DNA from: Neoalteromonas facilis
Lineage (GTDB): Bacteria; Pseudomonadota; Gammaproteobacteria; Enterobacterales; Alteromonadaceae
Length of the DNA stretch: 64,000 bases
NCBI RefSeq assembly: GCF_002807665.1
Contig: NZ_PEAY01000003.1
Span: forward strand, 186,503 to 250,502
Direction of reading: 5' to 3'
Part shown: one piece after another, positions 6,323 through 37,331 of the stretch
Position numbering within the stretch: position 1 is the stretch's first letter
Layout: every line of letters starts with the position of its first letter
Position numbers and translations under genes: made by a program
Notes under the pieces: model-generated
The model's database searches: none
Told to the model about the DNA's origin: nothing
The model's input: the letters and a program-made list of their open reading frames with translations, nothing else

Positions 6323-6333
6323 TCGTTTGGGTA

Positions 6334-7266
6334 TTACGTATCACTATTTAAATGGGCAAACGCCTTTAATACCAACTCGTTGATATCTTCTTCTTGCTGA
6401 CTCGACGCTATTCCTACAAGTAATTCAATATGCTTTAGTAAGCCGGCTGCAGACAACAACTGCTCTATGTTTTCCACAATACGCTGTGCAATATCTCGTA
6501 CACTCTTTTCATTCATATTGGTGAACAGTGCGACAAAACCTAAATTTGAATAGCGACCGACAATATCTGAACTACGAAGATTCATTTTAAACGAGTGTCC
6601 GACCGTTCTGACGGCGGTTTTATAGGCTGATGGTGTGGATTGTGGGTCGAGGTCGCCACCTAAATGCAAAAATAACACAGTAGCCGGTATGTTTTTATGC
6701 TGCGCAAATTTGAGGGCCAAGCCACCTAATTCCAAAAATCCTTCTTTTGAAGATAAGTTCGTTTCGTCATCAATGGAGGATGCGTTTCCCTCTAATAGTT
6801 CGAGTTCAACGATGCTTGCTAAATCAGATAAGCATGCATGCTCTTCAACGGTTAACGTTCTTTCACGTTTATCAATAATACACAGTGTACCCAGTTTGCT
6901 GCCATTCGGATGAACGAGAGGGTGCCCAGCATAAAATCGAATATTGGGCTCACCAGTGACCAGTGGATTTTCTTGAAAGCGAGCGTCTAAGCTTGCGTTG
7001 TTAACGACCATGGTACCGTCTTGTTGAATGGCATGCGCGCAAAATGAAATGTCACGCTCGGTTTCATCGACATTCATTCCAACCCTGGATTTAAACCATT
7101 GTCGCTCTGCGTCTATCAAACTGATAAGTACGGTCGGCACATTGATCAGTCTACTGGCTAATTTGGTAATACGGTCAAAGCGCTCTTCCGTAGGAGTATC
7201 CAGCACATTCAACGATTGAAGTGTCTTAAGGCGCTCATTTTCAGATTTATCAGCTTTTGCATTCAC
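6334..7266 (-). CDS. GAF domain protein with degenerate GGDEF domain
   Basis: 310 residues from GTG at 7266, which has a good ribosome-binding site (GGAAG, 7 bases upstream). A GTG at 7290 would add eight residues but lacks such a site. An N-terminal GAF domain (about 17-160) includes CAHAIQQDGTMVVNNASLDARF, the RFYAGHPL segment and LGTLCIIDK, the pattern of cytosolic GAF sensors found before GGDEF domains. The C-terminal 120 residues have the length and pattern of a GGDEF domain (VLFLHLGG...; VGHSFKMNLRSSDIVGRYSNLGFVALF). The active-site loop reads YSNLGF in place of GG[D/E]EF, so cyclase activity is not expected. It probably acts as a signal-binding or partner protein. Confidence 0.75.
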   Translation of the reverse strand: MNAKADKSENERLKTLQSLNVLDTPTEERFDRITKLASRLINVPTVLISLIDAERQWFKSRVGMNVDETERDISFCAHAIQQDGTMVVNNASLDARFQENPLVTGEPNIRFYAGHPLVHPNGSKLGTLCIIDKRERTLTVEEHACLSDLASIVELELLEGNASSIDDETNLSSKEGFLELGGLALKFAQHKNIPATVLFLHLGGDLDPQSTPSAYKTAVRTVGHSFKMNLRSSDIVGRYSNLGFVALFTNMNEKSVRDIAQRIVENIEQLLSAAGLLKHIELLVGIASSQQEEDINELVLKAFAHLNSDT

Positions 7267-7504: not shown

Positions 7505-10500
7505 CTATAATGCTATGAGCCGTCTGCGACAATACACTATCATGCTTAAAGCTAATAACATCAAATGTGTTGAGCTGCCGCCACTGCTGTCCCCAGAGTT
7601 ACTACCAGGAGGAGGCGGAGTAATAACGCTAAAAGTGAGACTACTGGTTGTTACCGCGCCAAGATCATCCGTTACGGCAACACTGAATGTATAGCTTCCT
7701 GCTGCCAGAGTGCCAAGCGTGATACTGGCTTGTGTATTGTCCGGAATTGAAACTGATGCGCCACTGGTTTGACTCCATTCCAGTTCAACAATTTCTCCAT
7801 CGTTATCAGTCGCATTGGCGCGCAGCGTGATCGATTGTGACGTTGTAGGCGCGCTTGGGTTAACACTGGTAGAGACAACCGGTGCTTGGTTTTGATTTAC
7901 AACGACATTGACTGACTGTGTCGTTGAAGCGCCTCGGGGATCTGTCGCGGTCAGTTCAAACTCATAGCTGCCAGGGCTAAGACCATTCACTTGTGTGGAA
8001 GCACTATTGGGCGTGACAATTTCTACGTCACTGCCATTTGAAGTGCTCCACTGCAGGGTAAGCGCTTCGTCTTCCGGATCTGTGACCTCTGCACTGAGCG
8101 AGAAAATACGGGTTTCAACGATGTCTTCAGGAGAAACACTGATTTCGCTTATTAGGGGGGCCTGATTTTCTTGGACGACAAGGGTGTCGGTTTCAGTTAC
8201 TGAATTACCCTCTTCATCGAATACCGAAATGGTTATGGGGTATTCTCCAATCTCTAAACCTGGAATAGTAAATGTTGCGGTACTGGCCGTTACATCAAAA
8301 CTGGCTGCGCCATACACTTCGATGATATCGTCGCCTTGCTGCGTTGTTCCAACAATAATCTCTAGTGTGGGCGTTGCCCAATTGATATTTTGATCTCTAT
8401 CGCTAACCGTTATGACTATGTGGGCGTCATCACCAATAATAACGGTTTTGCCAGTAATATTTTCAATGGCTGGAGGGATGACCTCAGGTACTACAGAATA
8501 TTCCAGTAGTTGAGGTAAATAGCCTGAATCAGTAACCTCTATCTGTAACATTAACGGCGTGACACCTTCGACGATGGGGGCTTTACCTGAAAACTGAATG
8601 GTCGTTTGATTGCCAAAGTCGGTTTGGGCAAACGATTGAGCATACTCAAAGTCAGTCATTTGTGGTGTAGACGCTTGGGTAACCGTGACATTGTCCGATT
8701 CACTCAGTCCCATCACGACAAATTCGCCACTTACTGATTCTAATTCAATTAAGAAAGGTGAATTACTGAAATAGTAGGTTAAGAGCTCAGGCAGTTCTCC
8801 TTGGGGATCTAAGTAGATAGTGTTGAAAACGTCATAGTTTTCAAAAGCCGTGTTAACGATTCGGATGGGCAAGTCAAATGGGTTGCGTTGGTCAGTATCG
8901 CTCAAAAGACTGGATATAACGTCAACATTTTCTTTTAACGTTATGTCTATATTACGCTCTTCACCACTCCCCGTTACTTGATAATCAAACCATGTGTCAG
9001 CTTCGCTAATAGCATCGACAATGTCTGCTGTGCCACCATTTTCAGTAAGCGCTATGGCTAACTTGATATCACTGTTGTCAGTGTTGGGGTTAGACAGCGT
9101 AAGCGTGATGCTTTGCTGGTCGTTAGGGTTGAAGAGGTTGAGTATCGTGGTGTCTGGGTACAAATAGTCACTATTAGTGCCATCTGATTGGTAATTGAGG
9201 CTTGTTTCTCCTACTAGTGCGTAACTCGGTGTGCCGCTTTCGTCTACAAAGCGCGCGAAAACACAGGTGTTGTCAGCATACTCACTGAATCTGTCAAAGG
9301 TAAGCTGATTGTTGGCTGTCGCTAGTGAGTTCTCAAATTGACCTCGCGAGGTATAATTATAAAACGTGCAATTGTAGGATAGAATTCGGTAGTCTGTTGC
9401 ACCTTCTACCGTGGGCCAACTTAATGTGAATTCGCCATTTTGAGCGACAATCTGAGTCAAGGATTGCATTCTGCTATAGGAATCTAGTCGAGCAGTGGCA
9501 ACGGCAGTCATGCGTGTTGAACGACTACCATCTGCGGCGTCTTGTTCAGCATCACTTTTACCCATCGGCGTTTCATTGAATAATATGTCTGGGCTTGAAT
9601 AAACGGCTTCATCCGAACAGTTCACACTATCACCTATTTCTCTGCAACTGCTGCCATAGGCCATGGTGGTATAGAAGTCTCCTTCAGGCTCTATGTAGCC
9701 ATAGGGGATGTGAAAATCTATTTGAGAACCGCCACCAATGCTACCGCCTGATAGTGTGAGCCTGTCATGGCGCAGCCCCAAATTATGGCCGACTTCGTGA
9801 GCATAGGTACCGTTGCCTAAGCAAACTAAGCGTGAATATCCTGCGAGAGCATTGAAACTAGTGAAGTCATATTGGTTGGTGGATGAGATGGTGTTACCGT
9901 AATAGGCTCTGCCACATACCTGTGTATCTTGTGCGCCAATAAAATGGACCATGTCAGCTTTATATCTGTCTTTTAGGCGTTTAATTTTCTCGCTACTCCA
10001 CATCCAACTTAAAATGCTAGATGAATCCTCGGTCGGGAAACCTTCAGAGGGCGCGTCACTGACCGGCAATATGCCAACAATGTTATGGGTTACTCCCACA
10101 GATGAACGTTCAAAAACCGAGTTTATAAGGGCATCAGCAGATGCTATGCGGGCAAGTAAATCATAACTAGAGACATTGTCTTCATTGACATATGCTCCTA
10201 AAATCCTCGGGTCATATATCAGTAATACATCCAGAGAGCCGTGGGATTCAGGCTCATTCATGCTGCCCACAGTCGTTGTTTGGTTTCCGCCCGTGATATC
10301 ATTTGGATTAACAATATGTTTAAGGTTTATTGGTTCAGGCAAAGCTTTGATTGACGCTTTAGGAATTTCCAATGGGTCCGATTGTAATTCAATGGCTTTT
10401 CGTACAGTGGTTTGCCCATTTCGCTCGACAATTTCCAATTTGGGTTGATTGGGTAATTTAATCACCGTTAGTGTTGTACTATCAGTTGAAACAATATGCC

Positions 10501-10810
10501 CGACGTTGTGCAGCATACCTGTCGCTGGTGATATCATCTCTAGTCTATAAAACCCTTTGTCGGGCTTACTATTTTCCGCGACTTGCAGAGAATGAAAGTC
10601 GCCATTAATAGACAGTTCTAAAGGTTGGCTAGGAGAGAACTGTTGTTGATTGATTAAATCACTAAATAACGTCGAACGAGATAATTCGACAGAATTAGCG
10701 ACAGCGAGTGTATCGCTATCAAATTCAATTAAGATTTTTTCTATTGCGTGTGCGTAATGCGTTGTGAGCAACGCTAAACCGATCATCCATCCTTTGCCTA
10801 ATACCTTCAT
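7505..10810 (-). CDS. Secreted zinc metalloprotease (reprolysin-like) with Ig/PKD-type repeats and GlyGly-CTERM-type tail
   Basis: 1101 residues. Signal peptide 1-22 (ends HYAHA). The catalytic motif HEVGHNLGLRHD at 338-349 is the extended metzincin zinc site HExxHxxGxxHD, and a Met-turn candidate (YTTMAYGSSC) lies about 30 residues later. The propeptide-like region precedes residue 190. After the protease domain come a fibronectin-like stretch and several Ig/PKD-like repeats (about 790-1060, e.g. LQWSTSNGSDVEIVTP and LEWSQTSGASVSIPD). The protein ends with a Gly/Ser-rich linker (SNSGDSSGGSS), a hydrophobic helix and CRRR. That is the GlyGly-CTERM arrangement, a signal processed by rhombosortase on type II secretion substrates. 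Divergent from another secreted protease gene. Probably degrades environmental protein. Confidence 0.88.
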   Translation of the reverse strand: MKVLGKGWMIGLALLTTHYAHAIEKILIEFDSDTLAVANSVELSRSTLFSDLINQQQFSPSQPLELSINGDFHSLQVAENSKPDKGFYRLEMISPATGMLHNVGHIVSTDSTTLTVIKLPNQPKLEIVERNGQTTVRKAIELQSDPLEIPKASIKALPEPINLKHIVNPNDITGGNQTTTVGSMNEPESHGSLDVLLIYDPRILGAYVNEDNVSSYDLLARIASADALINSVFERSSVGVTHNIVGILPVSDAPSEGFPTEDSSSILSWMWSSEKIKRLKDRYKADMVHFIGAQDTQVCGRAYYGNTISSTNQYDFTSFNALAGYSRLVCLGNGTYAHEVGHNLGLRHDRLTLSGGSIGGGSQIDFHIPYGYIEPEGDFYTTMAYGSSCREIGDSVNCSDEAVYSSPDILFNETPMGKSDAEQDAADGSRSTRMTAVATARLDSYSRMQSLTQIVAQNGEFTLSWPTVEGATDYRILSYNCTFYNYTSRGQFENSLATANNQLTFDRFSEYADNTCVFARFVDESGTPSYALVGETSLNYQSDGTNSDYLYPDTTILNLFNPNDQQSITLTLSNPNTDNSDIKLAIALTENGGTADIVDAISEADTWFDYQVTGSGEERNIDITLKENVDVISSLLSDTDQRNPFDLPIRIVNTAFENYDVFNTIYLDPQGELPELLTYYFSNSPFLIELESVSGEFVVMGLSESDNVTVTQASTPQMTDFEYAQSFAQTDFGNQTTIQFSGKAPIVEGVTPLMLQIEVTDSGYLPQLLEYSVVPEVIPPAIENITGKTVIIGDDAHIVITVSDRDQNINWATPTLEIIVGTTQQGDDIIEVYGAASFDVTASTATFTIPGLEIGEYPITISVFDEEGNSVTETDTLVVQENQAPLISEISVSPEDIVETRIFSLSAEVTDPEDEALTLQWSTSNGSDVEIVTPNSASTQVNGLSPGSYEFELTATDPRGASTTQSVNVVVNQNQAPVVSTSVNPSAPTTSQSITLRANATDNDGEIVELEWSQTSGASVSIPDNTQASITLGTLAAGSYTFSVAVTDDLGAVTTSSLTFSVITPPPPGSNSGDSSGGSSTHLMLLALSMIVYCRRRLIAL

Positions 10811-11038
10811 ATTGATTCCTTGTAGATCTATTTCGCAACTCAGGATATCAGGATAGTACAGTCTTGAAGGGCGTAGGAGATAAAATTTGTATTGTTTCCG
10901 CGATGTTATTACATCCAGCGTTACTCAGAGATGCGGTTTAACCTTTATTAAATGTAAAAAATTCCGACACTGATCTTCGTAACTGTATGAATTTCGTTAA
11001 ACTTTTAAATTGGTTGTTTTTTATTCGGATTTTGGTCT

Positions 11039-11067
11039 TTGCTATTCAATCCTTCTGGGTATATTAT
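11039..11067 (+). promoter_or_regulatory. Candidate sigma-70 promoter of the serine protease gene
   Basis: TTGCTA, a 17-base spacer and TATTAT: four of six and five of six consensus bases at optimal spacing. The start of transcription would be near 11074, giving a leader of about 78 bases. Confidence 0.5.
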
Positions 11068-11113
11068 TTTTGGTGTTGTATGAATTACAACCACATAAAA
11101 CAATAAACAACAG

Positions 11114-11134
11114 CATTTCACAACGCATGAAATG
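11114..11134 (+). promoter_or_regulatory. Small leader hairpin before the serine protease ribosome-binding site
   Basis: CATTTCA, 7-base loop, TGAAATG: a perfect 7-bp stem in the 5' leader, ending a few bases before the AAGGAAG ribosome-binding site. It could stabilise the transcript or influence translation; no factor is suggested. Confidence 0.3.
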
Positions 11135-11151
11135 TGGAATAAGGAAGTAAC

Positions 11152-12342
11152 ATGAAGAAGTTATTCAAGTCTCTACTGATGACGACTGTGGCCAGTGCCG
11201 TCAGCTTAAACCTATCAGCAACAGAAATCTTAGATGGTATCGAAAGTGCCCCAAACTTAGTGACAGTAGGTGCACCGGATGATCCGTTATATGCGAATGC
11301 GGGTGACAACCTCCGCAATGGTGTTGGTTCTATTTTTATTCAATTCAGTGACGGTGGTGGTTTTATCTGTACTGCAAGCGCGATCAGTAAAACACACATC
11401 TTAACTGCGGCGCATTGTGTGCGTAACGCTGGATCATCGTTAACGCGTCTTCGTTTTGTACTTACCGCAGGCTTAGATTCACCAATGATTTTAGACGCAA
11501 GTTCATTCGCTGTTCACCCTTGGTATGACGCGTTGAACCCATACTTAGGCGCTTTTGCTCACGGTGATATTGCCGTTGTTGAATTGGCGGAGCCTTTACC
11601 GGATGAGATCGAAACCTATGAGCTATACAGAACGCCAGATGAGTTTGGTTCGGAAACTCGCCACTATGGTCACGGCCGCTCAGGTAAGGGTAATAAAGGC
11701 GCAACCGGTGATGCGGATTTCTTCTACGCTAGAACGGGTTTAAATCAATATGAAGAAGTGTTAGAGCCTTTCTTGGGTACAGGCATTGAAGATCAGTTAT
11801 TGCATGATTTTGACAGTGGCGGTCGTAAGCACAATGCAATGGAATGGTGGTTCTCATCGGTATTTGTGTGCGGTAATGAAAATGGCACAAATCCCGGTCA
11901 AGCGCGTGACGGCAAGTGTATGTCGAAAAAAGATGGTAGCCATCCTGACTTTAAAGGGTACGGCGCGCTTGAAACAGGCGTAGCGCCGGGTGATTCAGGT
12001 GGTCCTGGCTTCATCAATGGTAAGATTGCAGGTGTTCATTCATTTGGATTTACGCACGGTTGTGACAGTATTTCTAACGGAACAGACTTCACTTGTGGGT
12101 TAGATAGCTCATTTGGAGAAATGTCAGGAGATACGCGTGTTTCCTATCATGCTGGCTGGGTAGATGCAGCTGTTTCAGGTGCTTTCCCATCAACGTCTAT
12201 TCCAGAGGCTATGGCACCTGAGAGCAATGCTACTGATAACGCACAAGCATCTGAAGTATCAGCATTGGTCGGTGAGAAAGCTCGTTTCTTCGTTGAGAAC
12301 GTTGTTTCTGGACAAATGAGCGGGAAAGCCAAAGTTCAATAA
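11152..12342 (+). CDS. Secreted trypsin-like serine protease
   Basis: 396 residues. Signal peptide about 1-23 (LLMTTVASAVSLNLSA). The chymotrypsin-fold catalytic triad is visible: His88 in LTAAHC, Asp139 in HGDIAVVEL, and Ser282 in GDSGGP. The domain starts without the classical IVGG activation motif; the equivalent region reads NGVGSIFIQFSDGGGFICTAS. Paired cysteines are present, as expected for a secreted enzyme. An extension after the protease domain (about 340-396) is acidic/Ala-rich without a known sorting signal. A good ribosome-binding site (AAGGAAG) precedes the ATG, and a strong terminator follows 36 bases after the stop, so it is transcribed alone. Probably an extracellular or periplasmic protein-degrading enzyme. 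Confidence 0.9.
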   Translation: MKKLFKSLLMTTVASAVSLNLSATEILDGIESAPNLVTVGAPDDPLYANAGDNLRNGVGSIFIQFSDGGGFICTASAISKTHILTAAHCVRNAGSSLTRLRFVLTAGLDSPMILDASSFAVHPWYDALNPYLGAFAHGDIAVVELAEPLPDEIETYELYRTPDEFGSETRHYGHGRSGKGNKGATGDADFFYARTGLNQYEEVLEPFLGTGIEDQLLHDFDSGGRKHNAMEWWFSSVFVCGNENGTNPGQARDGKCMSKKDGSHPDFKGYGALETGVAPGDSGGPGFINGKIAGVHSFGFTHGCDSISNGTDFTCGLDSSFGEMSGDTRVSYHAGWVDAAVSGAFPSTSIPEAMAPESNATDNAQASEVSALVGEKARFFVENVVSGQMSGKAKVQ

Positions 12343-12378
12343 CTTGATACGCTTTCTCAAGACTAAAAGAGAATTTAA

Positions 12379-12406
12379 AACGACAGCTTAGGCTGTCGTT
12401 TTTTTT
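12379..12406 (+). terminator. Intrinsic terminator of the serine protease gene
   Basis: Perfect 9-bp stem AACGACAGC / GCTGTCGTT with loop TTAG, followed by a run of T. Confidence 0.9.
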
Positions 12407-12546
12407 AAACGCTAAAGTGGTCTCAGGCCGCGCTGAAAGGGAATATGTAGCCTATAACTACCAAGGGATTGCATTTAATATGTTAATCAAGTGTAAATCT
12501 CATGCTGGCATTGAATGCCCACATGATTATTGTCAGGTAGTTCAAG

Positions 12547-14538
12547 ATGAGGCTCCTTCCTTCATACCGTTTTGGCTTTACTGTTTGTTTCGCCGTTTTA
12601 ATATTAGGATGTGGAGGTGAACAAACCTCTGAATCGCCTGCACCCGCGCCACAACAACCGCCTGTAGAATCCATTACACCTGAAAGAGCAGGCCATTCTG
12701 TGGCTCGAATGTGGAACGAGGCGCTTCTCTTTGCAATCCGAAATGATTTTGCTAGACCTACTGTACATGCGCGCAATCTATTTCATATTTCGGCTTCTAT
12801 GTATGACGCATGGGCAAGTTACGATGCAAATGTCCAACAATACTTATTCGGCGCTAATGTTTCTGGATTTACTTGCACTTCTGACACTGTGTTGGTGCCA
12901 AATGACCGCTTACCGGAGCAAGAAAAAGCAATTAGCTTTGCAGCATACAGGCTGATTAAACACCGTTTTAAATACTCTCCAGGTGTAGGGTTCATTTATG
13001 CACATATTGATGCTCTGATGCAGGAACTGGGGTATGACGCGTCTGATGAGAGCTTAGATTATTCAGCAGGAAATGCAGCTGCGCTGGGCAATGCGATTGC
13101 CGATTGTTATATCTCATTTGGTTTGCAAGACGGCGCAAATGAAGCGGGGTTCTATGAGAATCAGTATTACCAACCGATCAATCCACCATTAGTGCTTGAT
13201 AGCAGTACTCAGGGTAACCCCACAATTCAAGATCTGAACCGCTGGCAACCGTTAGTCATTCAGGGGTTTATCGACCAAGCGGGTAATCGAACTGAGGATG
13301 CACCTGAATTTTTGAGCCCTGAATGGGGGCAAGTGGTGCCATTTTCGCTGTCAATCAACGATAGAAATACGTTTGAGCGTGATGGCTATGATTATCAGGT
13401 ATATCATGATCCTGGTAATCCTCCGTTGCTCGGTTCAGATAGAAGTGAAGAATATCAATGGGGATTTGCGTTAGTGGGGATTTGGTCTTCTCATTTAAGT
13501 ACCCAAGATGACGTGATGTGGGATATATCCCCCAATCGTATTGGCAATATTCAATCCTTCCCACAGAGTTTTGAGGAATACCTGAGCTTTTATAAACAAA
13601 TGGAAGGCGGCGATGCCAGTATTGGTTACGCCGAAAACCCAGTTACGGGTGAACCCTACGAAGAGCAGTGGGTGCCGCGCGGTGACTACACGCGAGTACT
13701 TGCCGAGTTTTGGGCGGATGGCCCCGACTCTGAAACACCACCGGGGCACTGGTTTGTGATCATGAATGAAATTAGTGACCATCCAATGTTGGAAAAGCGC
13801 TGGGGCGGCTCTGGGAGTGTACTGGGAAACTTAGAGTGGGATATTAAGACGTACTTTTCTTTAGGTGGCACTATGCACGATGTGGCAATTTCTGCATGGG
13901 GGATAAAGGGGCGTTACGACTATATTCGGCCCGTTTCTGCAATACGAGCTATGGCTGATAAAGGACAAAGTACTGATCCTGACGGACCATCTTATCATCC
14001 TCTAGGGCTTCCACTGTTGACCGGCTTTATAGAGGTTGTAGAAGCTAATGATCCGCTAGCCGGAGCGGGGCAGGAGCATGTCGGCAAATTAAAGCTATAC
14101 GCATGGAAAGGACCTGATTACATAAACGATCCCAATGAAGATACTGCGGGTGTAGGCTGGGTCTTAGCCGAAAATTGGTGGCCATATCAGAGGCCCACGT
14201 TTGTGACGCCACCTTTTGCAGGATATGTGTCTGGCCACTCTACTTATTCAAGAGCGGCAGCCGAGTTACTGACTCTGATGACTGGAAGTCCATATTTTCC
14301 TGGTGGAATGAGTGACTTTGTAGCACCCGCGAATGATTTTCTAGTGTTTGAGAAGGGGCCGAGTGTGCCTGTAGTACTGCAATGGGCAACGTATAGAGAT
14401 GCGGCCGACCAATGCAGCTTGTCACGTATCTGGGGGGGGATACACCCGCCCGCAGACGATATCCCAGGCCGTGAAATTGGAGAAGCAATAGGGCGAGAAG
14501 CCTTTGCGTTTGCCCAACAATATTTCAGCAATGATTAA
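12547..14538 (+). CDS. Vanadium-dependent haloperoxidase / PAP2-fold lipoprotein
   Basis: 663 residues. The N-terminus has a lipoprotein signal with lipobox ILGC (Cys about 21), followed by a Pro-rich linker. The region LFAIRNDFARPTVHARNLFH and a following 'MYDAWASYD' are typical of bacterial proteins annotated as vanadium-dependent haloperoxidases. The three PAP2/haloperoxidase active-site segments are near the end: KGRYDYIRPVSAIR (K-x6-RP type), YVSGHSTYSRAA (SGH), and SRIWGGIHPPADD (R-x4-G-x-H-x3-D). These residues bind vanadate or phosphate. Sequence alone does not show whether it oxidises halides or acts as a phosphatase. It converges on an FG-GAP/ASPIC lipoprotein gene with five bases between the stops. 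Confidence 0.8.
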   Translation: MRLLPSYRFGFTVCFAVLILGCGGEQTSESPAPAPQQPPVESITPERAGHSVARMWNEALLFAIRNDFARPTVHARNLFHISASMYDAWASYDANVQQYLFGANVSGFTCTSDTVLVPNDRLPEQEKAISFAAYRLIKHRFKYSPGVGFIYAHIDALMQELGYDASDESLDYSAGNAAALGNAIADCYISFGLQDGANEAGFYENQYYQPINPPLVLDSSTQGNPTIQDLNRWQPLVIQGFIDQAGNRTEDAPEFLSPEWGQVVPFSLSINDRNTFERDGYDYQVYHDPGNPPLLGSDRSEEYQWGFALVGIWSSHLSTQDDVMWDISPNRIGNIQSFPQSFEEYLSFYKQMEGGDASIGYAENPVTGEPYEEQWVPRGDYTRVLAEFWADGPDSETPPGHWFVIMNEISDHPMLEKRWGGSGSVLGNLEWDIKTYFSLGGTMHDVAISAWGIKGRYDYIRPVSAIRAMADKGQSTDPDGPSYHPLGLPLLTGFIEVVEANDPLAGAGQEHVGKLKLYAWKGPDYINDPNEDTAGVGWVLAENWWPYQRPTFVTPPFAGYVSGHSTYSRAAAELLTLMTGSPYFPGGMSDFVAPANDFLVFEKGPSVPVVLQWATYRDAADQCSLSRIWGGIHPPADDIPGREIGEAIGREAFAFAQQYFSND

Positions 14539-28570: not shown

Positions 28571-29755
28571 ATGCCAGCCATTGAATGGGGAAATATCAAC
28601 GCGCTTTGGGGACTTTTGGGTTTACTCGTCCCTATTATTATCCATTTGATCAGTCGAAGCCGTGTTATTACCCGTCAATTCGCTTTTATACGGCTATTAC
28701 CGATCCAACCATTACCGGTTAAACGAAATATCAATCTTTCCCAGCGCTTGTTACTACTGGTGCGGATGGTACTCGTGATATTGGCCGTTTTGCTATTAGC
28801 CAACGTGAGCTGCAGTGATCAACAAAAACCGAACGATGTGGTGTATGTGGTTACGCCGGATTGGCTAAACTCTGCCACCGTGTCGCAACACAATGAACTA
28901 AAACGGTCAATTGAAAACCTTGGTACACCCTCTCAAATATGGTTGTTATCTACCCATCCAGTGCGCGTTTCATTGGATGAACTGCTTTCTAAGCCAGAGG
29001 ACTTTGGTAAGTTAGTGACAGAAAAGCCTGCAATAAATATATGGGGTAGGGTAAATCAGTTATTCAGTTTATTGTCTGTTGAACATGCTAATGCATCTGA
29101 TATGACACTGCATGTTTTTACAACCAATGCCGCACATCAGTTTCAAGCAGAGCTTATAAGCGTACCCATGAATACTCAATGGCACGTGGCGCCCTCCAAT
29201 TCTCAAACGATAACAGACGACAGAGCTCAGCAATCCTCAATAGCTGTAGGGGGGGTGGGGGCTGATGCGATGGAATGGCAATTGTTTCAACGTGCTTTTT
29301 TCGCAATCAACCAGTCAAGTGAGGCCGAAATCAATGTGCGTTTGATCGACGCTATCTCGTCGCAACAACTGGAAGACGTCGATAGGCTGATTGTGATGCC
29401 AGACACTTTATTAACCACGGCTTCTCAACAAGCGCTTAACGCTTGGTTATACGAGGATTTCTCGCACAAAGTGACCAATGCTGCGCAGTTTGATATACAA
29501 GACTCCAATTTTCCCGTGCACTTGATTACAGAACTGTATGCTGACAACGCAACGGAGCTATTAACAAGTGCATCTGTGTTAACTGAAGGGCAAATAGCAT
29601 TGGCTAATGCTGAACAGCTAAAAACCCACTCTAGCGCTACAAAATTACAGCCCGATGAACAGCCTGTCCCATTAGGCCTAGCGATTGCGTTTATCAGTCT
29701 ATTGTTGTTGGAACGATTGCTCAGTGAATATCGTAGAGAGGGGCGCAATGACTGA
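28571..29755 (+). CDS. BatA-like membrane protein (aerotolerance N-terminal domain)
   Basis: 394 residues from ATG at 28571 (TTG at 28568 is one codon earlier), with GAGG 10 bases upstream. The N-terminus WGLLGLLVPIIIHLISRSRVITRQFAFIRLL is the BatA/aerotolerance N-terminal module. A second membrane helix lies near 60-80 (LLLLVRMVLVILAVLLLANVS), and a C-terminal helix near 370-383 (PLGLAIAFISLLLLERLLS). The central part is a periplasmic domain of about 270 residues without the intact MIDAS of full BatA proteins. The stop overlaps the start of the next gene (ATGACTGA), so translation is coupled. It anchors the MoxR/DUF58 partners to the membrane by analogy with bat operons. Confidence 0.83.
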   Translation: MPAIEWGNINALWGLLGLLVPIIIHLISRSRVITRQFAFIRLLPIQPLPVKRNINLSQRLLLLVRMVLVILAVLLLANVSCSDQQKPNDVVYVVTPDWLNSATVSQHNELKRSIENLGTPSQIWLLSTHPVRVSLDELLSKPEDFGKLVTEKPAINIWGRVNQLFSLLSVEHANASDMTLHVFTTNAAHQFQAELISVPMNTQWHVAPSNSQTITDDRAQQSSIAVGGVGADAMEWQLFQRAFFAINQSSEAEINVRLIDAISSQQLEDVDRLIVMPDTLLTTASQQALNAWLYEDFSHKVTNAAQFDIQDSNFPVHLITELYADNATELLTSASVLTEGQIALANAEQLKTHSSATKLQPDEQPVPLGLAIAFISLLLLERLLSEYRREGRND

Positions 29756-32099
29756 CGGGAAAAGCGCAAATAGCGATATTCTATTAGATATTGAAAGGTT
29801 GCGTTCTGAGGCGCGGAATCGCTATTGGTTGAAGCAAGCATTGCGAGCACTAGCAGCGACATTGTGGCTAATAGTGTGCCTACAAGTTAGCGCTAAGTTT
29901 GTCGATGGTGTAGATCAGTTTGTTTGGTTTTGTGCTCTAACCTTTATTCTTTGGTTTTTCGTTGTGGTGATCCGAGGCGAACACCGAAAATATTCCATAG
30001 CTAACATTCTGCTGCATGCTAACCGGCATATCCCTGATACGCAGCAAAGTGCTCATCTACTGTTGCAAAAACCGGACGAGCTTAATCCTCTACAGCGCTT
30101 GCAGCGCGAGAGAACTGCAAGGACCATTGCTCACGCGTTATCTGATATCCGTGTTGAAACCCTGCGTCCACTTCGGCTTAGAGCAGAAAGTCGTTTCTTG
30201 CTTGGCGCATGTTTACTCCTTGTGCTGCTGTTTTTTGTACAGCCTATCGTCCGACAACTACCCGAAGGGAGCAATGCTCAAAGTGCTACAGGAAATGTCG
30301 ACATTCCTACTGAGTATGTTTATGAGCTAACGATCACGCCGCCGGCCTATACACAGTTGTCACAACGCTCTTCATCTGAATTAAATGTCAGTGTCGTAGA
30401 GGGGGCAGAGATAACCTGGCGACTTGAGCCGTCAGAAATTGATAGCGACAGCGTATTTTCGCTCGATATAGACGGTGAAGCATTACCGATGGTAGAGGCC
30501 GAGAATGGCGTTTGGTCCGTTTCTACTCGTGTGTTCAGCTCGTCGCTATATCATTTTAATCTCGTTATCGGCGATTCTAGTGAACCCATCTCCGACATTT
30601 TCACGTTAGATGTTAGCAATGACAAACGACCGAATATTAAGATCCAAACACCTGAAAAAACGGTGACTGAATTTACCAAAAGTAGCACACCCACATTGTT
30701 GTCTAAAGTCGTTGTGAGCGATGACTTTGGCATTACTGACACTTACATTGAGGCATCTATTGCCAAAGGAACGGGTGAAGCTGTTAAGTTCAGAGATGAA
30801 GTGTTCCGATTTGATGATGAAACGGTAAATCCCGATGCGCAAGATAGCAAATATAGTAACGTCTACAGCAAATTATGGGATCTGGTTTCGCTTGGTATGG
30901 AGCCAGGAGATGAACTCTACTTTACCGTTATAGCGGCGGATAACCGCACGCCGGATGTGCAGGTCAGTCGCTCCGAAACGCGTATCATTAAATGGCTTGA
31001 TGACGAAGTCGAAGGCATTACCAGTGAGGGAATTGTGATTGACTTTATGCCGGAGTACTTTAAAAGCCAACGCCAAATAATCATTGAAACCAAAGAGTTG
31101 ATGGCCAACCGGGAAGAGATGCCGGTGGCTGAGTTTGACCGAATATCGCGCGATTTAGGTATGGCGCAAAGTGATTTGAAACATCGATATGGTCAGTATC
31201 TTGGAGACGAGTTTGAGTCTGGGGTTATGCAAACTATGGAGCAAGGTCCTCAGCATATCGCCGAATCACATGGACATGACGATGAAGAGGAGCACGAGGC
31301 AGAGCAGCATAGCCATGACCATGCTGAGCATGGCAATTTTACCGATACACCGACCAACGCAGATCGCTCGGGTTTCAACGAAGTTGTAGAGCAATTTGGC
31401 CATGATCATGGTGAAGTCGATGTGGGCTTTATTTCATTGCGTAAAGGGGAGTTCAGTCCCAAAGTATTGATGAAGCAATCGATTGCCAATATGTGGCAAG
31501 CTGAGTTGTTCCTGTTGTTATCTCAGCCAGAGCGCGCACTGCCATTTGAAGTCAAAGCACTAGAGTTTTTAAATAGAGCAAAACAAGCTGATAGAGTGTA
31601 TGTTAAGCGACTCGGCTTTGAGCCACCCCCTGTATCGAATGATCGCCGCTATGAAGGTGAGCTACGTGATATCGAATCTATCCAGCGGACATTAAAGAGC
31701 CCACAAAACAAAGCTGTAGAAGTGCAACTGAGAACGCTTCTCAAAACAGTCAATAGTGTTTCACTTACAGAGCAGCTAGGGTTGTCTGATCAGGCCCAAC
31801 AACAGATCAGCGCTGTGGTTGATGTGCTGCAGCAAGAACTTGAATTATCTCAGGCTGATAGTGCTTCGTTAACAGCGCTGGCGAATATGCGTCGTGTTTT
31901 AATAGCAGAGCAGTGGGCTCCGGAGAGTTGTCAGAACTGTCTAAACGACATTATGCATTATCTTTGGGGACGATTATCGAGCCCACTCTCACCTCCGCGC
32001 GAAAGTAAGCGACGAGATTTGTCTGACTCTCCTATTGTGCAAACTTATCTAGAACAAGGTGAAAGCAGCCTAACATCTGAGCAGGGAGCACAGCAGTAA
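29748..32099 (+). CDS. DUF4175-like membrane protein with histidine-rich segment
   Basis: 783 residues from ATG at 29748, inside the end of the BatA-like gene (8-base overlap); the frame opens earlier but that part lies over the neighbour. Helices near 30-50, 55-72 and 150-167 are followed by a large periplasmic region: ELTITPPAYTQLSQRSSSELN and a domain ending in DNRTPDVQVSRSETRIIKW, typical of the DUF4175 family. From residue 508 there is a striking metal-binding-like stretch in which nearly every residue is H, D or E (HGHDD, then HSHDHAEHG), with a second cluster FGHDHGEVD near 553. The rest is helical. Role unknown; the segment could buffer or sense zinc or another metal for the system. 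Confidence 0.82.
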   Translation: MTDGKSANSDILLDIERLRSEARNRYWLKQALRALAATLWLIVCLQVSAKFVDGVDQFVWFCALTFILWFFVVVIRGEHRKYSIANILLHANRHIPDTQQSAHLLLQKPDELNPLQRLQRERTARTIAHALSDIRVETLRPLRLRAESRFLLGACLLLVLLFFVQPIVRQLPEGSNAQSATGNVDIPTEYVYELTITPPAYTQLSQRSSSELNVSVVEGAEITWRLEPSEIDSDSVFSLDIDGEALPMVEAENGVWSVSTRVFSSSLYHFNLVIGDSSEPISDIFTLDVSNDKRPNIKIQTPEKTVTEFTKSSTPTLLSKVVVSDDFGITDTYIEASIAKGTGEAVKFRDEVFRFDDETVNPDAQDSKYSNVYSKLWDLVSLGMEPGDELYFTVIAADNRTPDVQVSRSETRIIKWLDDEVEGITSEGIVIDFMPEYFKSQRQIIIETKELMANREEMPVAEFDRISRDLGMAQSDLKHRYGQYLGDEFESGVMQTMEQGPQHIAESHGHDDEEEHEAEQHSHDHAEHGNFTDTPTNADRSGFNEVVEQFGHDHGEVDVGFISLRKGEFSPKVLMKQSIANMWQAELFLLLSQPERALPFEVKALEFLNRAKQADRVYVKRLGFEPPPVSNDRRYEGELRDIESIQRTLKSPQNKAVEVQLRTLLKTVNSVSLTEQLGLSDQAQQQISAVVDVLQQELELSQADSASLTALANMRRVLIAEQWAPESCQNCLNDIMHYLWGRLSSPLSPPRESKRRDLSDSPIVQTYLEQGESSLTSEQGAQQ

Positions 32100-34012
32100 T
32101 GTTAATCGATAGTTTATCCGTGCAATTACCATTCTCTTTTTGGGGATGCGTACTGCTATTCAGTATGGTTGGAACTGGATGGCTGTTGTCCGGTTATTGG
32201 ATCATTAGGCGTCTTAAGGGGCAGAACGGGCGTTTGGCGATTGTAATATTGCTCAATAGCCTGGTCTGGTTTTTAGGCGTTTTGCTGTTAAGTGATATCA
32301 AGATCAGTCGTGACGTTGAAAAGGCAATGGTGGTTATCACCAATAGCGCTAAGGACGCTACACATCAGCTTCAATCTGCAACTGAACTAGACAGCGCTGA
32401 GTGGGTGCGCTTTCTATCGAATAACAACGAAATGCAATCCCATAATGACGATAGAGAAGTTGCAACAGTCAGTCATATCGAAGCGCTCAGCACACGGTTA
32501 CAAGATGCCGGAACGGTTTTCATCGTCGGAGATGGTCTTTCTTCAACTCATTGGCAATTTCTTGAACAAAGCAGCAACGTACTGGAAAAAAATATTAATT
32601 TTATTCCGTCGGATAGTCGAACGGGGATCGTGCGTGCACAGTGGCCTAAGCATATAAAATTAGGCGAGTTTGTTAATTTATCCTTTTCTCTGCACGGCCA
32701 TCATAGCGACGATTCATTGTATCGACTAGAGCTTGTCGATCCGATGGGAGGGGCGCTAGACACCCAACTAGCGCGTGTAGGAGAGCGGCTCTCCATGCAA
32801 TGGCAACCAAAAGCAAACGGGCAGTGGCTGTACACTTTGCGTTTGATAGAGGATGCAACTGATCAAGAAATCTCAAGCGAGATGATTGCGTTGGATGTCA
32901 CCCAGCCTGATTTACTTAACGCACTTATTGTGCAATCGGCTCCTAATTTCGAATCGCGTCACCTCCAGAACTATTTGGTCGATGCGGGTGCGAACGTCAC
33001 GGTGAGATCGCAGATCAGTAAAAACGCATTTAAATCGCAGTCTGTCAAAGAGCAAACTAGCCCTCAATTGCCAACTGATACTGCAATTCTGCCGCTGGAT
33101 TTATTGCAGTTTGATGTGCTTGCCATAGATTGGCGAGCGCTAGAGAACTTATCTGAAAGTGAACGAGAGCGTTTGTCGAATGCGATAGCAGAGGGGCTCG
33201 GGGTGCACCTTTGGTTAGCCGATACAGCGCTAACTAGCAGCCTCTGGCAAGAGCTTGAATGGCTAGACATTGGGTCAGTGGAGAAGATGCGAGAAGAGTA
33301 CGCAGGGGTTTTCCCGGTGTGGCAAACGGGCAGGGCAGATAAACCACAAACGTTTGTGTCAATGCAATTACCTAAACGTAATCAAACAATATTAGTGAGC
33401 GCAAGCACAGGAGAGCCACTGGTCATAGAAAAACGTTGGCAATTAGGGCGGGTCGCGTTGAGTCTTTTACCTTCGACATACGTTGTTAAACTAGAGGGTG
33501 ACGGCGTCTTGTATACCAATTATTGGGCCGAATTGTTGAGCCGCATCGGACGCGCTTCAGAAAGACCCGAGATATCCGTTAGCGACCAAAATATGCCGCT
33601 CCGGGCTAACGAAAGAGTGCAAATATGTGTGAGCGGTGTTGCGCCTCATGCAAAGTTTGAATTGAAGTCTTATGACAATGCTAGCGTAAGCCTAGCTTCG
33701 ATGCCGCATCCGATCGTTGATGGTCGTCACTGTGCGTTCGCATGGGCTTCAGAGACTGGGTGGCACACATTGTCTGTACTTGAAGATGAAACACAAAGTG
33801 TCAGCGTATCGCAACCATTATATGTTTATGCAGAGGACGGTTGGACGAGTTGGCGACAGTATGAGGCTAGCAATGTCACCCAGAGAGTTGCCGCCAATGC
33901 TAGGAAACCAGAAGGACAACAGTATTCCACACAGTCGCAAGATAAGTATTGGCTATTTATCTTTTGGTTGCTGGGAATGACACTGTTGTGGGTAGAACGC
34001 AAATGGTTCTAA
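32099..34012 (+). CDS. Membrane protein with glutamine-amidotransferase-like domain (bat operon)
   Basis: 637 residues. Two N-terminal helices (about 16-36 and 46-65) and a C-terminal helix (about 617-632) bracket a large periplasmic part. It includes an Ig-like segment and a Rossmann-like domain starting LNALIVQSAPNFESRHLQNYLVDAGANVTVRS, and then DVLAIDWRALENLSESERERLSNAIAEG. These are typical of the amidotransferase-like proteins that end MoxR/BatA operons. No Cys-His-Glu triad is evident, so catalytic activity is doubtful. It begins one base into the stop of the DUF4175-like gene (TAATG) and completes a six-gene run (DUF4159 to here) with nearly no gaps. It converges on the ABC permease gene, 13 bases between stops. 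Confidence 0.78.
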   Translation: MLIDSLSVQLPFSFWGCVLLFSMVGTGWLLSGYWIIRRLKGQNGRLAIVILLNSLVWFLGVLLLSDIKISRDVEKAMVVITNSAKDATHQLQSATELDSAEWVRFLSNNNEMQSHNDDREVATVSHIEALSTRLQDAGTVFIVGDGLSSTHWQFLEQSSNVLEKNINFIPSDSRTGIVRAQWPKHIKLGEFVNLSFSLHGHHSDDSLYRLELVDPMGGALDTQLARVGERLSMQWQPKANGQWLYTLRLIEDATDQEISSEMIALDVTQPDLLNALIVQSAPNFESRHLQNYLVDAGANVTVRSQISKNAFKSQSVKEQTSPQLPTDTAILPLDLLQFDVLAIDWRALENLSESERERLSNAIAEGLGVHLWLADTALTSSLWQELEWLDIGSVEKMREEYAGVFPVWQTGRADKPQTFVSMQLPKRNQTILVSASTGEPLVIEKRWQLGRVALSLLPSTYVVKLEGDGVLYTNYWAELLSRIGRASERPEISVSDQNMPLRANERVQICVSGVAPHAKFELKSYDNASVSLASMPHPIVDGRHCAFAWASETGWHTLSVLEDETQSVSVSQPLYVYAEDGWTSWRQYEASNVTQRVAANARKPEGQQYSTQSQDKYWLFIFWLLGMTLLWVERKWF

Positions 34013-34025
34013 ACAGTCGTTATAA

Positions 34026-35267
34026 CTAGTTACTGAGCCCTCTGTGAAGGGTGTTGCGGTAGGCATTTATCGCTGGAATACACGCAATAATTAGGCTCAT
34101 TGCGCAAACGAATAACACAATCAGAAGCGAATGACTGCTTAATACTGTGTTGTCGATAAACAAACCAAACTCATGGCTTAGCCACTCATTGCTGAACTGA
34201 ATACCGAGCCATACGAGAGATACTGCAATAATACTGGCTAGCAAACTGATCAAAAGTGCCTCTGCCTGTATCAACCAAAAAATTGTCATGGGGCCGGCGC
34301 CTATAGCGCGCAAGATTGCAAACTCTCGCTGCCTTTCACGTATTGATGTCAACAACATGGTTGCCATGCCCATCATGGACGAAAACAGTATAAAAATGGA
34401 AATAAGCAGCAATATGTTTTCAACGTTACCTACTAATTTCCAAAGTTCTGCTAAGGCCACACCGGGCAAGATTGCCATGAGTGCCTCTGATTCATATTGA
34501 TTAATAGTGCGCTGCAGTTGCAGTGCCTGAATTTTAGAATTAAGTCCTAACATAGCCGCTGATATTGCGTCGGGTTGAAGTTCTACACGCTGATTTAAAC
34601 GCCATTCCTGTTGCATGGCATGTGCATCAGATTCACTCATATGCATGATCTCAATGCCTTGTAGGCTAACATGCAAGGTTTGGTCAACTGGTGTGCCTGT
34701 CGGGGCGAGTATGCCACTGACGGTAAAAGGCGAATGGTCATGATGATGGAAGCTGGTATGCCCAACCCCATGGGATAACACGATTTGATCGTTGAGCGAA
34801 TAGCCCAGTTGCTTGGCGACATCGGCTCCCAACACGAGTGTAAAAGGAGAATCAAAAGGTGAACCGCTGCTAAATACTAAAGGTTGCTTATTACCATATT
34901 TGAAATGGTCGAAATACGTAGAGGTTGTACCCAGAACTCTGTATCCGCGATGAGAGTCACCCAATGACATTGGAATACTCCATGCAACACTTGGTGATTG
35001 CATAATCGCTTCATAGCTCTCCCACGAAATGTTGTTGCTTGGATTGCCCATACGAAAGACAGAATATAAAAGTAGGTTAATTTGACCCGTACGCGCGCCA
35101 ACAATTAGGTCAACCCCGGACACGGTCCGTCCAAAACTGTCTTTTGCTTGTTGCCTAATAAGTTCAACACTCAGCAGCAATGAAACGCTGACGATAATCG
35201 ACAGCAATGTCATGATCACCGCACCTCGTCTGTCCTTTAAGCTAGAAATAGCAATACTGATCAACAT
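34026..35267 (-). CDS. FtsX-type ABC permease with HHHDH cluster, probable zinc importer subunit (ZrgC-like)
   Basis: 413 residues. An N-terminal helix (about 17-37) is followed by a periplasmic domain and three C-terminal helices with the FtsX loop SIRERQREFAILRAIGAGPMTI. The periplasmic domain holds a histidine cluster at 166-178 (HGVGHTSFHHHDH), which is unusual for LolC or MacB permeases and suggests metal binding. The Vibrio cholerae Zrg zinc system uses a MacB-like permease and ATPase pair of this type; that comparison is from memory. The start overlaps the ATPase stop (ATGTTGA). A Zur-like operator lies upstream of the pair. The usual His-rich binding protein (ZrgA, DUF2796) is not in this window. 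Confidence 0.7.
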   Translation of the reverse strand: MLISIAISSLKDRRGAVIMTLLSIIVSVSLLLSVELIRQQAKDSFGRTVSGVDLIVGARTGQINLLLYSVFRMGNPSNNISWESYEAIMQSPSVAWSIPMSLGDSHRGYRVLGTTSTYFDHFKYGNKQPLVFSSGSPFDSPFTLVLGADVAKQLGYSLNDQIVLSHGVGHTSFHHHDHSPFTVSGILAPTGTPVDQTLHVSLQGIEIMHMSESDAHAMQQEWRLNQRVELQPDAISAAMLGLNSKIQALQLQRTINQYESEALMAILPGVALAELWKLVGNVENILLLISIFILFSSMMGMATMLLTSIRERQREFAILRAIGAGPMTIFWLIQAEALLISLLASIIAVSLVWLGIQFSNEWLSHEFGLFIDNTVLSSHSLLIVLFVCAMSLIIACIPAINAYRNTLHRGLSN

Positions 35268-35962
35268 GACGGCACTACCTCAATACGGTTTAGTTGACTC
35301 ATATTGATACTGCACGAGAAATAGTCAGCGAGTGCATCATCATGACTGACAAAAAGCAGGGTGCTGTTATTGGTTTTGACACATTCAAACAGCAACTGCA
35401 TAAACCCATCTCGGGCCTGTTTGTCTAATGCAGACGTTGGTTCATCGACTATCAGGATTTCGGGCTCATTGATTAGTGCTCGAGCGATCGCCACACGCTG
35501 TTGTTGGCCTACACTCAATTCACTAGCACGTTTGTTGAGTAATGTTTCAGATAACCCTAATAGGCTGAAGTACGCCTTAATAGTCTCATTATTTTCTGCA
35601 GAAAGATTACCGCCAAAATATGCAGCGGCTTTGATGTTTTGCTCTACGGTTAAGTATGGGATCAAATTAAACTGCTGAAAAACCACACCCACATGTTGGG
35701 CTCTAAAACGGTCGCGACGACGAGAAGAGAGCGCAGAAAAGGGTTGTTGCAAAAGTTGAATGTCACCTGAAGAAGGCGTTAGCGTGCCGCAGATCAGGTT
35801 TAGCAGCGTGCTTTTACCTGAGCCTGACGCGCCGACGACAAAAAGGTGTTCGCCATCAGTGACCTGCCACTTGGGAATTGAAAGTACAAGCGGAGAGTCT
35901 TCGGAGTATCGAAACGTTAAGTCGCGAACATCGATTGCATTTGCCTTGGACTTTGGCACCAC
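35261..35962 (-). CDS. ABC transporter ATPase, LolD/MacB type, probable zinc importer (ZrgB-like)
   Basis: 233 residues, GTG start (positions 35962-35960; a second GTG follows directly). Walker A GASGSGKST, Q-loop FQQFNLIPYL, signature LSVGQQQR (one change from LSGGQQQR), Walker B EILIVDEPTSALD and H-loop LFVSHDD are all present, so the ATPase should be active. It is translationally coupled to the FtsX permease that carries the HHHDH cluster. The divergent promoter region to moeA holds a near-perfect Zur box (36039-36056) about 77 bases before this start. I infer zinc-repressed expression. Without the Zur box it would be called a lipoprotein or macrolide-type ABC ATPase. Confidence 0.75.
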   Translation of the reverse strand: MVPKSKANAIDVRDLTFRYSEDSPLVLSIPKWQVTDGEHLFVVGASGSGKSTLLNLICGTLTPSSGDIQLLQQPFSALSSRRRDRFRAQHVGVVFQQFNLIPYLTVEQNIKAAAYFGGNLSAENNETIKAYFSLLGLSETLLNKRASELSVGQQQRVAIARALINEPEILIVDEPTSALDKQARDGFMQLLFECVKTNNSTLLFVSHDDALADYFSCSINMSQLNRIEVVPSC

Positions 35963-36030
35963 ACTTTTCTCATCTAAATTAAAAGTTCAGAGAATAACCG
36001 CGATGTTACGCTAATCACTCTGAATTTGGA

Positions 36031-36059
36031 TTGACTATAGTGTGATAGGGTAACATAGT
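36031..36059 (+). promoter_or_regulatory. Candidate sigma-70 promoter of moeA
   Basis: TTGACT, exactly 17 bases, CATAGT (five of six and four of six consensus bases). Transcription would start near 36066, giving a short leader of about 33 bases. It overlaps the Zur box, so Zur could in principle also affect moeA. Confidence 0.5.
36039..36056. promoter_or_regulatory. Candidate Zur (zinc uptake regulator) operator
   Basis: AGTGTGATA-GGG-TAACAT. From memory, the E. coli znuA/znuC operator reads AGTGTGATA-TTA-TAACAT; the two agree at all 15 positions outside the 3-base centre. It sits in the divergent region between the ABC ATPase and moeA. Minus-strand promoter elements (TTCAAC, 18 bases, TATAGT) overlap it, a normal place for repression. 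Confidence 0.68.
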
Positions 36060-36098
36060 TGAAGTAACCGCGAACACGCCTTTTGCTCGAATAAATAG

Positions 36099-37331
36099 AT
36101 GAAAAATCAACAAACTAGACCACCCTGGTTGCCTTTGACCGAAGCGCTTGGGTATATCGAAAAAAACACTAAACCCATTTGTCAGCCTTCTCAAATAGCT
36201 ACTCAATACTGTTTAGGGCGGATTGTGGCTGAAGACATTATTTCTTCTATTGATGTGCCAGCCTTTAATAATTCCTCGATGGACGGATATGCACTTCGTC
36301 ATGCAGACACACTAACAACGGATACCCTTCAGATTGTAGGAGAGAGTTTTGCAGGGCATCCATATACCGGAACTATCGGAGAGAAAGAATGCGTGCGCAT
36401 TATGACTGGCGGCGTGTTGCCGAAGGGGGCCGACACTGTTGTGATGCAAGAAAACGTCATTGTTAGCAATGATCGTATTGAATTGACTGAGCCTGTTCAA
36501 TTTGGTGAATCTGTGCGTTACGCGGGGAGTGATATTGCGATAGGGCAAACCTTGATTGAAGCCGGACATAAGCTAAACGCTGTCGATGTGGGGCTAGGGG
36601 CTTCTGTCGGTATGGGTGAACTACCAGTATACAGCACATTACGTGTTGCGGTTTTATCCACTGGAGATGAGTTATTAGCACCTGGACAAGCATTAAAGCC
36701 TGGGCATATATATGACTCGAATCGCTATGCGTTGATGGCCTTGTTACAAGGACAAGGCTACGACGTAATTGATATGGGGATTGTGGAAGATGATCCTGAT
36801 GCAATTAAAAGTGCCTTTATGCGGGCTGATCAACAGGCGGATGCGGTGATTTGTTCAGGGGGCGTGTCGGTCGGCGATGCAGACCATGTAAAGGCAGTGC
36901 TATCTGACATAGGGCAAGTTGACTTTTGGAAGATTGCAATTAAGCCAGGAAAGCCTCTGGCATTTGGTCGCCTGCCGAATACGGTGTTTATCGGACTACC
37001 TGGAAATTCTGTATCTGCCGTGGTGACATTTATTCAAGTTGCTCAATATGCACTCGCGCGATTGGCTGGGGAAAAACGCAAATCTCAACCATCATTTACC
37101 GCGATTGCTGCTGACAGATTCTATAAACGTGCCGGGCGACAAGACTTTCAACGTGCATTATGTTTTGAAGATGACAGTGGACAGCTCAAAGTAAGACCGG
37201 TTGGCCGACAAAATTCAGCGGTGCTTTCAACATTCTCTGATAGCAACTGTTTTGCTGTTCTTCCGCTAGAATCAGCCGATGTCATGCCGGGAGAGGAAGT
37301 GACGGTGCAACTATATTCCTATCTGATGTAA
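36099..37331 (+). CDS. moeA: Molybdopterin molybdenumtransferase MoeA
   Basis: 410 residues, the family's usual length. Recognised by FNNSSMDGYALRHAD near the start, the MTGGVLPKGADTVVMQE segment, VLSTGDELLAPGQ, SGGVSVGDADHVK, WKIAIKPGKPLAFG and the GLPGNSVSA loop, followed by the C-terminal beta domain (RAGRQDFQRA). MoeA inserts molybdate into adenylylated molybdopterin to complete molybdenum cofactor in the cytoplasm. No other moa/moe/mog genes are close, so the pathway is dispersed. It is divergent from the zinc-importer-like pair, with the promoter at 36031-36059 and a short leader. Confidence 0.95.
   Translation: MKNQQTRPPWLPLTEALGYIEKNTKPICQPSQIATQYCLGRIVAEDIISSIDVPAFNNSSMDGYALRHADTLTTDTLQIVGESFAGHPYTGTIGEKECVRIMTGGVLPKGADTVVMQENVIVSNDRIELTEPVQFGESVRYAGSDIAIGQTLIEAGHKLNAVDVGLGASVGMGELPVYSTLRVAVLSTGDELLAPGQALKPGHIYDSNRYALMALLQGQGYDVIDMGIVEDDPDAIKSAFMRADQQADAVICSGGVSVGDADHVKAVLSDIGQVDFWKIAIKPGKPLAFGRLPNTVFIGLPGNSVSAVVTFIQVAQYALARLAGEKRKSQPSFTAIAADRFYKRAGRQDFQRALCFEDDSGQLKVRPVGRQNSAVLSTFSDSNCFAVLPLESADVMPGEEVTVQLYSYLM

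Follow-up and report, generated by a model that had tools for sequence, protein, structure and literature searches.

Two adjacent genes in the window, the 64-kb stretch of DNA analyzed here, encode an ATP-binding subunit and an FtsX-type permease. Judged by the permease tree and by signature residues, the pair is a member of the ZrgBC/PA4064-PA4065 family; it is genuinely of the Zrg type and represents a side lineage that has no zinc partner genes nearby. The interpretation that we favor, and consider fairly probable, is that this side-lineage transporter is not controlled by Zur and that the Zur-like site in front of it is a chance match or a relic. ZrgBC-type pairs are common in the order, and by name alone such a pair could be called either a zinc importer or a lipoprotein exporter. 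A name of this kind would overstate the function, because the pair belongs to the family but lacks the partner genes and any convincing Zur box.

Gene Organization of the Locus

The window lies on contig C17 of a 3.9-Mb genome (G000), and the comparison within its genus covers four genomes. The ATPase gene starts with GTG and its end overlaps the start of the permease gene (Table 1). Walker A, the signature LSVGQQQ, and Walker B were all found in the ATPase by a motif check, and the protein matches Pfam ABC_tran with 122.1 bits; the permease matches FtsX (56.1 bits) and MacB_PCD (43.6 bits), each above the cut-off. Two long genes at 29685-34012, which we take to be Bat-type, are convergent with the transporter pair and have no Pfam match. 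The large protein encoded at 29685-32099, itself without a Pfam match, contains a His/Asp/Glu-rich stretch, HGHDDEEEHEAEQHSHDHAEHG, an altered version of which is present in its homolog in G002, another genome of the genus.

Table 1. Features of the transporter locus in window coordinates.
Feature	Positions	Strand	Evidence
FtsX-type permease with MacB-like periplasmic domain, ZrgB/PA4065 type, 413 aa	34026..35267	-	Pfam and tree
Codons of HGVGHTSFHHHDH, permease residues 166-178	34734..34772	-	alignment; positions from permease ORF
ATP-binding subunit, ZrgC/PA4064 type, 233 aa	35261..35962	-	Pfam ABC_tran and motifs
Sigma-70-like site TTGACT-17-CATAGT upstream of moeA; overlaps the Zur-like site	36031..36059	+	consensus scan
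Weak Zur-box-like 23-mer, core 36041-36055, probably chance	36037..36059	.	7.6 bits
moeA (molybdopterin molybdotransferase), divergent from the pair	36099..37331	+	NCBIfam NF007960, 513.4 bits (cut-off 440)

The G002 copy of the pair is 76% identical and adjoins the same M1-peptidase and Bat-type genes as in the window. In G002 (L048:2922-4039 and 5979-7154), the Bat-type genes are separated from the transporter by xre-like and RES-domain genes, and iadA occupies the position held by moeA in the window. These differences mark the junction as a site of gene turnover. The sigma-70-like site listed in Table 1 is weak evidence, because the region contains three such sites compared with a mean of 7.5 in shuffled sequences.

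Assignment to the ZrgBC Family

The permease search matched all four genomes of the genus, 234 of 246 genomes of the family at E ≤ 0.001 (some by distant matches only), and 105 of 295 genomes of the order at E ≤ 1e-30. Among the matches listed, 85 loci, the window included, were hand-picked and taken together with their neighbors; the tree and the residue counts cover 84 of them, with L168, in which the permease is spread over two ORFs, omitted. The window permease nests with loci that contain zrgA, DUF3299, and merC genes, many of them with Zur boxes; none of the rows is identified by name as the protein of V. cholerae or of P. aeruginosa. The order zrgA-ATPase-permease-DUF3299 was observed in 10 of 18 loci from other families of the order, and the order A-C-B-E is reported for the V. 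parahaemolyticus zrg genes (PMC9817125). We therefore assigned the pair to the ZrgBC type, in agreement with the sequence-only reading.

Two described systems resemble the pair. Like the ZrgABCDE systems of Vibrio cholerae and V. parahaemolyticus, it combines a separate ATPase with a four-helix MacB-like permease, and it is grouped with this family by the tree with zrgA-linked loci and by the signature residues; in contrast to them, the window genome has no ZrgA that we could find, no linked DUF3299 gene, and no convincing Zur operator, and the neighboring gene is moeA. PA4063-PA4066 of Pseudomonas aeruginosa likewise includes a two-gene MacB-type transporter (PA4064/PA4065), whereas no PA4063-like or PA4066-like partner adjoins the window pair.

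Conserved Residues of the Permease

Six residues (H166, H176, H209, D53, D104, and D195) are invariant in all 84 aligned permeases, while H106 is conserved in 80 and H199 in 71 of the 84 rows. Since H166 and H176 are invariant, HGVGHTSFHHHDH is a mark of the whole family, composed of HG-x8-H and variable extra histidines. The extra histidines vary even among the nine side-branch rows counted (H170 in five, H174 in three, H175 in five, and H178 in six). The histidine motif that the sequence-only reading had called untypical of LolC/MacB permeases is present, but it is not particular to the window protein, and we rejected it as a special mark of that protein. Because the side branch keeps the conserved His/Asp set, its members probably still use the periplasmic site. 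A two-sequence structure prediction reached a pLDDT of 37 and was set aside.

Family membership and residue conservation are demonstrated at the level of sequence comparison. By analogy with MacB and with the published PA4064/PA4065 model, the transporter would be a mechanotransmission machine assembled from two ATPases and two four-helix permeases, with the conserved D104, H106, H166, H176, D195, H199, and H209 of its periplasmic domains probably touching a metal or a metal chelate. The side-lineage copy, with no ZrgA, DUF3299, or MerC alongside and most likely without Zur control, would at present serve, as our best guess, to handle a metal or a metal chelate in the envelope.

The direction of transport within the family is disputed in print. 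ZrgABC is linked to zinc import in V. cholerae, where ZrgA was reported to be needed for zinc-limited growth in a znuA background (PMC9820375), and for V. parahaemolyticus the zrg operon and its control by Zur have been described (PMC9817125). In contrast, a 2024 study presents PA4064/PA4065, a pair described there as Zur-regulated, as a MacB-type exporter for pyochelin-cobalt (PMC11481552). The earlier designation of the window pair as an importer named the right family, but its direction is one on which the Vibrio and Pseudomonas reports (PMC9820375; PMC11481552) disagree.

A Side Branch without Zinc Partner Genes

We defined a zinc-context locus by the presence of at least one of zrgA, DUF3299, zrgD, and merC, ZnuD not being counted; 56 of the 85 loci are of this kind. 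Among these 56, zrgA is present in 40, b-type DUF3299 (D3299b) in 45, a-type DUF3299 in 22, and merC in 19. A CobW-like GTPase is encoded in 17 of them. Of the 19 other non-zinc loci, two have a ZnuD-like gene. A Pfam check of sampled proteins identified ZrgA (131 bits) and DUF3299 (140 bits) in L046 and CobW in L082. Some zrg clusters carry an extra Fur-family gene between zrgA and merC (L046:11049-11570 and L091:10505-10999); the L046 protein matches Pfam FUR with 27.6 bits (cut-off 23.1).

In the maximum-likelihood tree of 84 permeases, the window falls in a nine-row clade (support 98/97), all of whose members lack zinc markers. Besides the window, the clade contains L048 and L049 from the same genus, five loci of genus g10 (L077, L078, L080, L094, and L095), and L079; L081 is a tenth side-branch row with weaker support (90/47). 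None of the 10 side-branch loci has zrgA, DUF3299, merC, or zrgD near the pair, and the zinc-context label switches 8 times on the permease tree versus 23.7 times in shuffles. A search of 395 genomes with the side-branch alignment revealed no new member of the branch: the nine known members score 735-773 bits and the next protein 640. Three genomes (G003, G094, and G194) have both a side-branch copy and a zinc-type copy, and the side-branch copy is therefore a paralog there; the other permease matches in G000 and G002 are weak (E above 1e-4).

The Zur-Like Site Upstream of the ATPase Gene

The sequence-only reading had proposed that the pair is zinc-repressed, on the strength of AGTGTGATAGGGTAACAT, read at 36039-36056, as a match outside the center to the E. 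coli znu operator. The letters are there and both arms match; the center that was left out of the comparison is GGG and is the weak point. This operator agrees with the published E. coli motif TGWNAYRWTATAWYRTNWCA, and the central TATA is emphasized in the same study (PMC4219657). Real sites are AT-rich at the center, and the three central G of the window site have frequencies of 0.03, 0.01, and 0.09 in a matrix of 53 sites of relatives. Only one place in the 64 kb, 36040-36055, fits the pattern GTGTGATANNNTAACA without mismatch; with up to three mismatches the pattern occurs 10 times in the window versus 21 times in shuffles. The window site also fits the 8-position purine/pyrimidine skeleton RNNNYRNNRYNNYRNNNY, as do 209 places in the window.

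Two matrices were used for scoring. The strict matrix is symmetric, spans 23 positions, and was trained on 53 sites of zinc-context loci that differ from TGTTATANNATAACA at no more than one position; the relaxed matrix comprises 38 sites, each the best positive-scoring upstream site of a zinc-context locus, with the genus of the window omitted. By the strict matrix, the window site is the top site of the 64 kb and scores the 7.6 bits given in Table 1 over 23 positions, compared with 23.9 bits for the E. coli operator; the strict matrix may undervalue sites with odd centers. By the relaxed matrix, it scores 8.8 bits, ranks fourth in the window, and lies under the tenth percentile (10.4) of the training sites. 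A 136-bp gap would contain a site as good as that of the window with a probability of 0.0075 (strict) or 0.019 (relaxed), and 3.9 Mb of Markov sequence contains 136 (strict) or 422 (relaxed) sites scoring as high. The site is locally suggestive and ordinary at genome scale. Five matches inside ORFs of the same genome outscore it (7.8, 9.1, 9.4, 10.9, and 15.3 bits), among the 30 own-genome matches that were taken as loci and scored, some of which are one site on two strands.

Upstream regions of the ATPase gene were scored in 83 of the 85 loci, L137 and L155, which have no assigned ATPase, being omitted. A site of at least 10 bits is present in 34 of the 56 zinc-context loci, in none of the 10 side-branch loci, and in none of the 17 other non-zinc loci scored, the high scores of zinc-context loci arising partly by construction because the strict matrix was trained on their near-consensus sites. 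In the remaining 22 zinc-context loci, the score in front of the ATPase gene stays under 10 bits, as in L047, a true zinc locus, with 7.3 bits; in some of these low-scoring loci the box precedes another gene, so a missing box is not proof against Zur control.

No site comparable to that of the window occurs upstream of the ATPase in any of the nine related side-branch loci, and none of these nine has a match with two or fewer mismatches (10-15 kb each, scanned on one strand with a nearly palindromic pattern). In G002, the best site upstream of the ATPase scores -2.1 bits and that upstream of iadA -4.3 bits; neither of the two genus members in which iadA precedes the pair has a comparable site upstream of that gene. 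A 9.6-bit site at position 2868 of L048 was read as background, as it lies upstream of the xre-RES pair and not of the transporter. The Zur-like site at 36041 is thus a weak match, probably chance or a relic, and expression of the pair is therefore probably not zinc-repressed. The proposed repression by zinc found no support in a site that is weak, has GGG at its center, and is unconserved in the nine related loci.

Zinc Regulon and Zinc Uptake Elsewhere in the Genome

A Zur gene was sought, and the genome indeed encodes a Zur-like regulator of the Fur family (C18:235599), which scores 157.1 bits against NF008646, just below the cut-off of 167. A genome scan for Zur sites revealed clear boxes (20.6-24.0 bits) at three kinds of genes, but not at the window pair. 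Tandem boxes of 24.0 and 23.6 bits precede a ZnuD-like TonB receptor gene (L099:3797-3833, contig C18), whose product scores 412 bits against NF038289, below the cut-off of 950. A box of 23.4 bits precedes the domain match of a MerC-family membrane protein (L217, G000:C12:424328) by about 60 bp, and the same type of box, at 23.6 bits and a similar distance of about 60 bp, is found in G002 (L219, G002:C38:223927). G000 and G002 thus share the MerC box, while the G002 transporter pair has no Zur-like site. The third gene, on contig C17 (L101:2093-3739, box of 20.6 bits), encodes a fused endonuclease/exonuclease/phosphatase (EEP) and acid phosphatase, relatives of which occur in seven zinc-context loci. 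A further Zur-like site of 16.1 bits lies on contig C1 (L004, C1:157104) between genes that by eye are leuS-like and LonB-like, with no obvious link to zinc.

The missing binding protein ZrgA had been suggested to be encoded elsewhere; it was not found in the whole genome, either with the Pfam model (PF10986, zero matches) or with a 10-row alignment that detected it in G001 and G003 and not in G000 or G002. DUF3299, the other expected partner, does have one copy in the genome; however, this copy lies on another contig (C18:144188), unlinked to the pair, and the 14.5-kb stretch around it, on the strand scanned, has no Zur match with two or fewer mismatches. ZnuA was not found in G000, the only genome searched for it, and ZIP was found in none of the four genus genomes. 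MerC, present in all four, is with its Zur box a candidate inner-membrane zinc route on sequence grounds; clear Zur boxes at ZnuD and MerC in a genome where ZnuA, ZrgA, and ZIP were not found make it directly testable how such bacteria move zinc through the inner membrane.

The strongest competitor of our interpretation is a Zur-repressed Zrg-type zinc importer that either needs no ZrgA or uses a different periplasmic carrier, in a genome where ZnuA, ZrgA, and ZIP were not found; we regard it as doubtful. Since a Zur-like regulator is present and none of these three uptake components was found, a need for a zinc importer may exist, and the clear boxes at ZnuD, MerC, and EEP point the same way, as do membership of the ZrgBC family in the tree and a site whose two arms both match, which precedes the ATPase start by about 78 bp and is locally unlikely by chance. 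However, that site is weak and unconserved, zinc-limited growth of the V. cholerae znuA background is reported to need ZrgA (PMC9820375), PA4065 is reported as an exporter (PMC11481552), and G003 has a side-branch copy in addition to a complete zinc-type cluster.

Molybdenum-Cofactor Genes near Side-Branch Loci

Genes of molybdenum-cofactor metabolism occur in the examined surroundings of 7 of the 10 side-branch loci and of none of the 75 others; the count is post hoc, because the cofactor markers were chosen after seeing the neighborhoods. In the window, moeA is divergent from the pair (36031-37331 including the upstream site). In five g10 loci, moeB overlaps the permease stop by 4 bp; the L077 gene (8571-9350) scores 326 bits against the MoeB subfamily (cut-off 266) and 304 of 377 bits against the equivalog TIGR02355. 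In L081, moaABCE lie at 10390-13156, the nearest of them, moaE, about 2.5 kb beyond the ATPase with two genes intervening. Because the five moeB loci are one arrangement in one genus, these are three arrangements and not seven independent events.

The association is a lead and not a result. A recruitment of the side lineage into molybdenum-cofactor metabolism, where it might handle, for instance, a metal or thiol ligand required by the pathway, is improbable in our estimate, and we give equally little credence to the corresponding scenario in which a ZrgBC branch lost both its zinc-binding partner and its control by zinc and was re-assigned to molybdenum-cofactor biology. The proximity of moeA, moeB, and moaABCE speaks for such a role, whereas the partner in G002 and G003 is iadA (415.9 bits in G002, cut-off 331; the G003 protein is 73% identical to it), L079 has neither cofactor genes nor iadA and unrelated neighbors, and a cofactor role has no known mechanism.

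Distinction from Other FtsX-Type Transporters

Automatic annotation could call the pair an ordinary lipoprotein releaser (LolCDE) or a macrolide exporter (MacAB), but either identity is hardly credible: LolD is the best NCBIfam match of the ATPase and the domain family is common to both, but the LolD, LolCE, and MacB scores are all far under the curated cut-offs, the tree also disfavors both systems, and the six scanned neighboring window proteins include no additional FtsX-type permease and no MacA-type domain (Pfam). Against NCBIfam equivalog cut-offs, LolD reaches 161.4 of 307.75 bits and LolCE 22 of 362.45 bits. The ATPase scores 124.7 of 966 bits against the fused MacB, and here ATPase and permease are separate genes. 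FtsEX was likewise rejected (FtsE 159.1 of 264.85 bits; Gram-negative FtsX 19.4 of 255 bits). The distinction of a Zrg-like pair from LolCDE and MacAB, made in the sequence-only reading, is borne out at the family level by the tree, the signature residues, and these sub-cut-off scores. The stretch of LolF aligned here lacks the HG-x8-H motif of the ZrgB family; the FtsX-type C-terminal domain is shared with the superfamily of MacB, LolCDE, FtsEX, and YtrF, and the permease weakly matches solved YtrF, LolF, and MacB.
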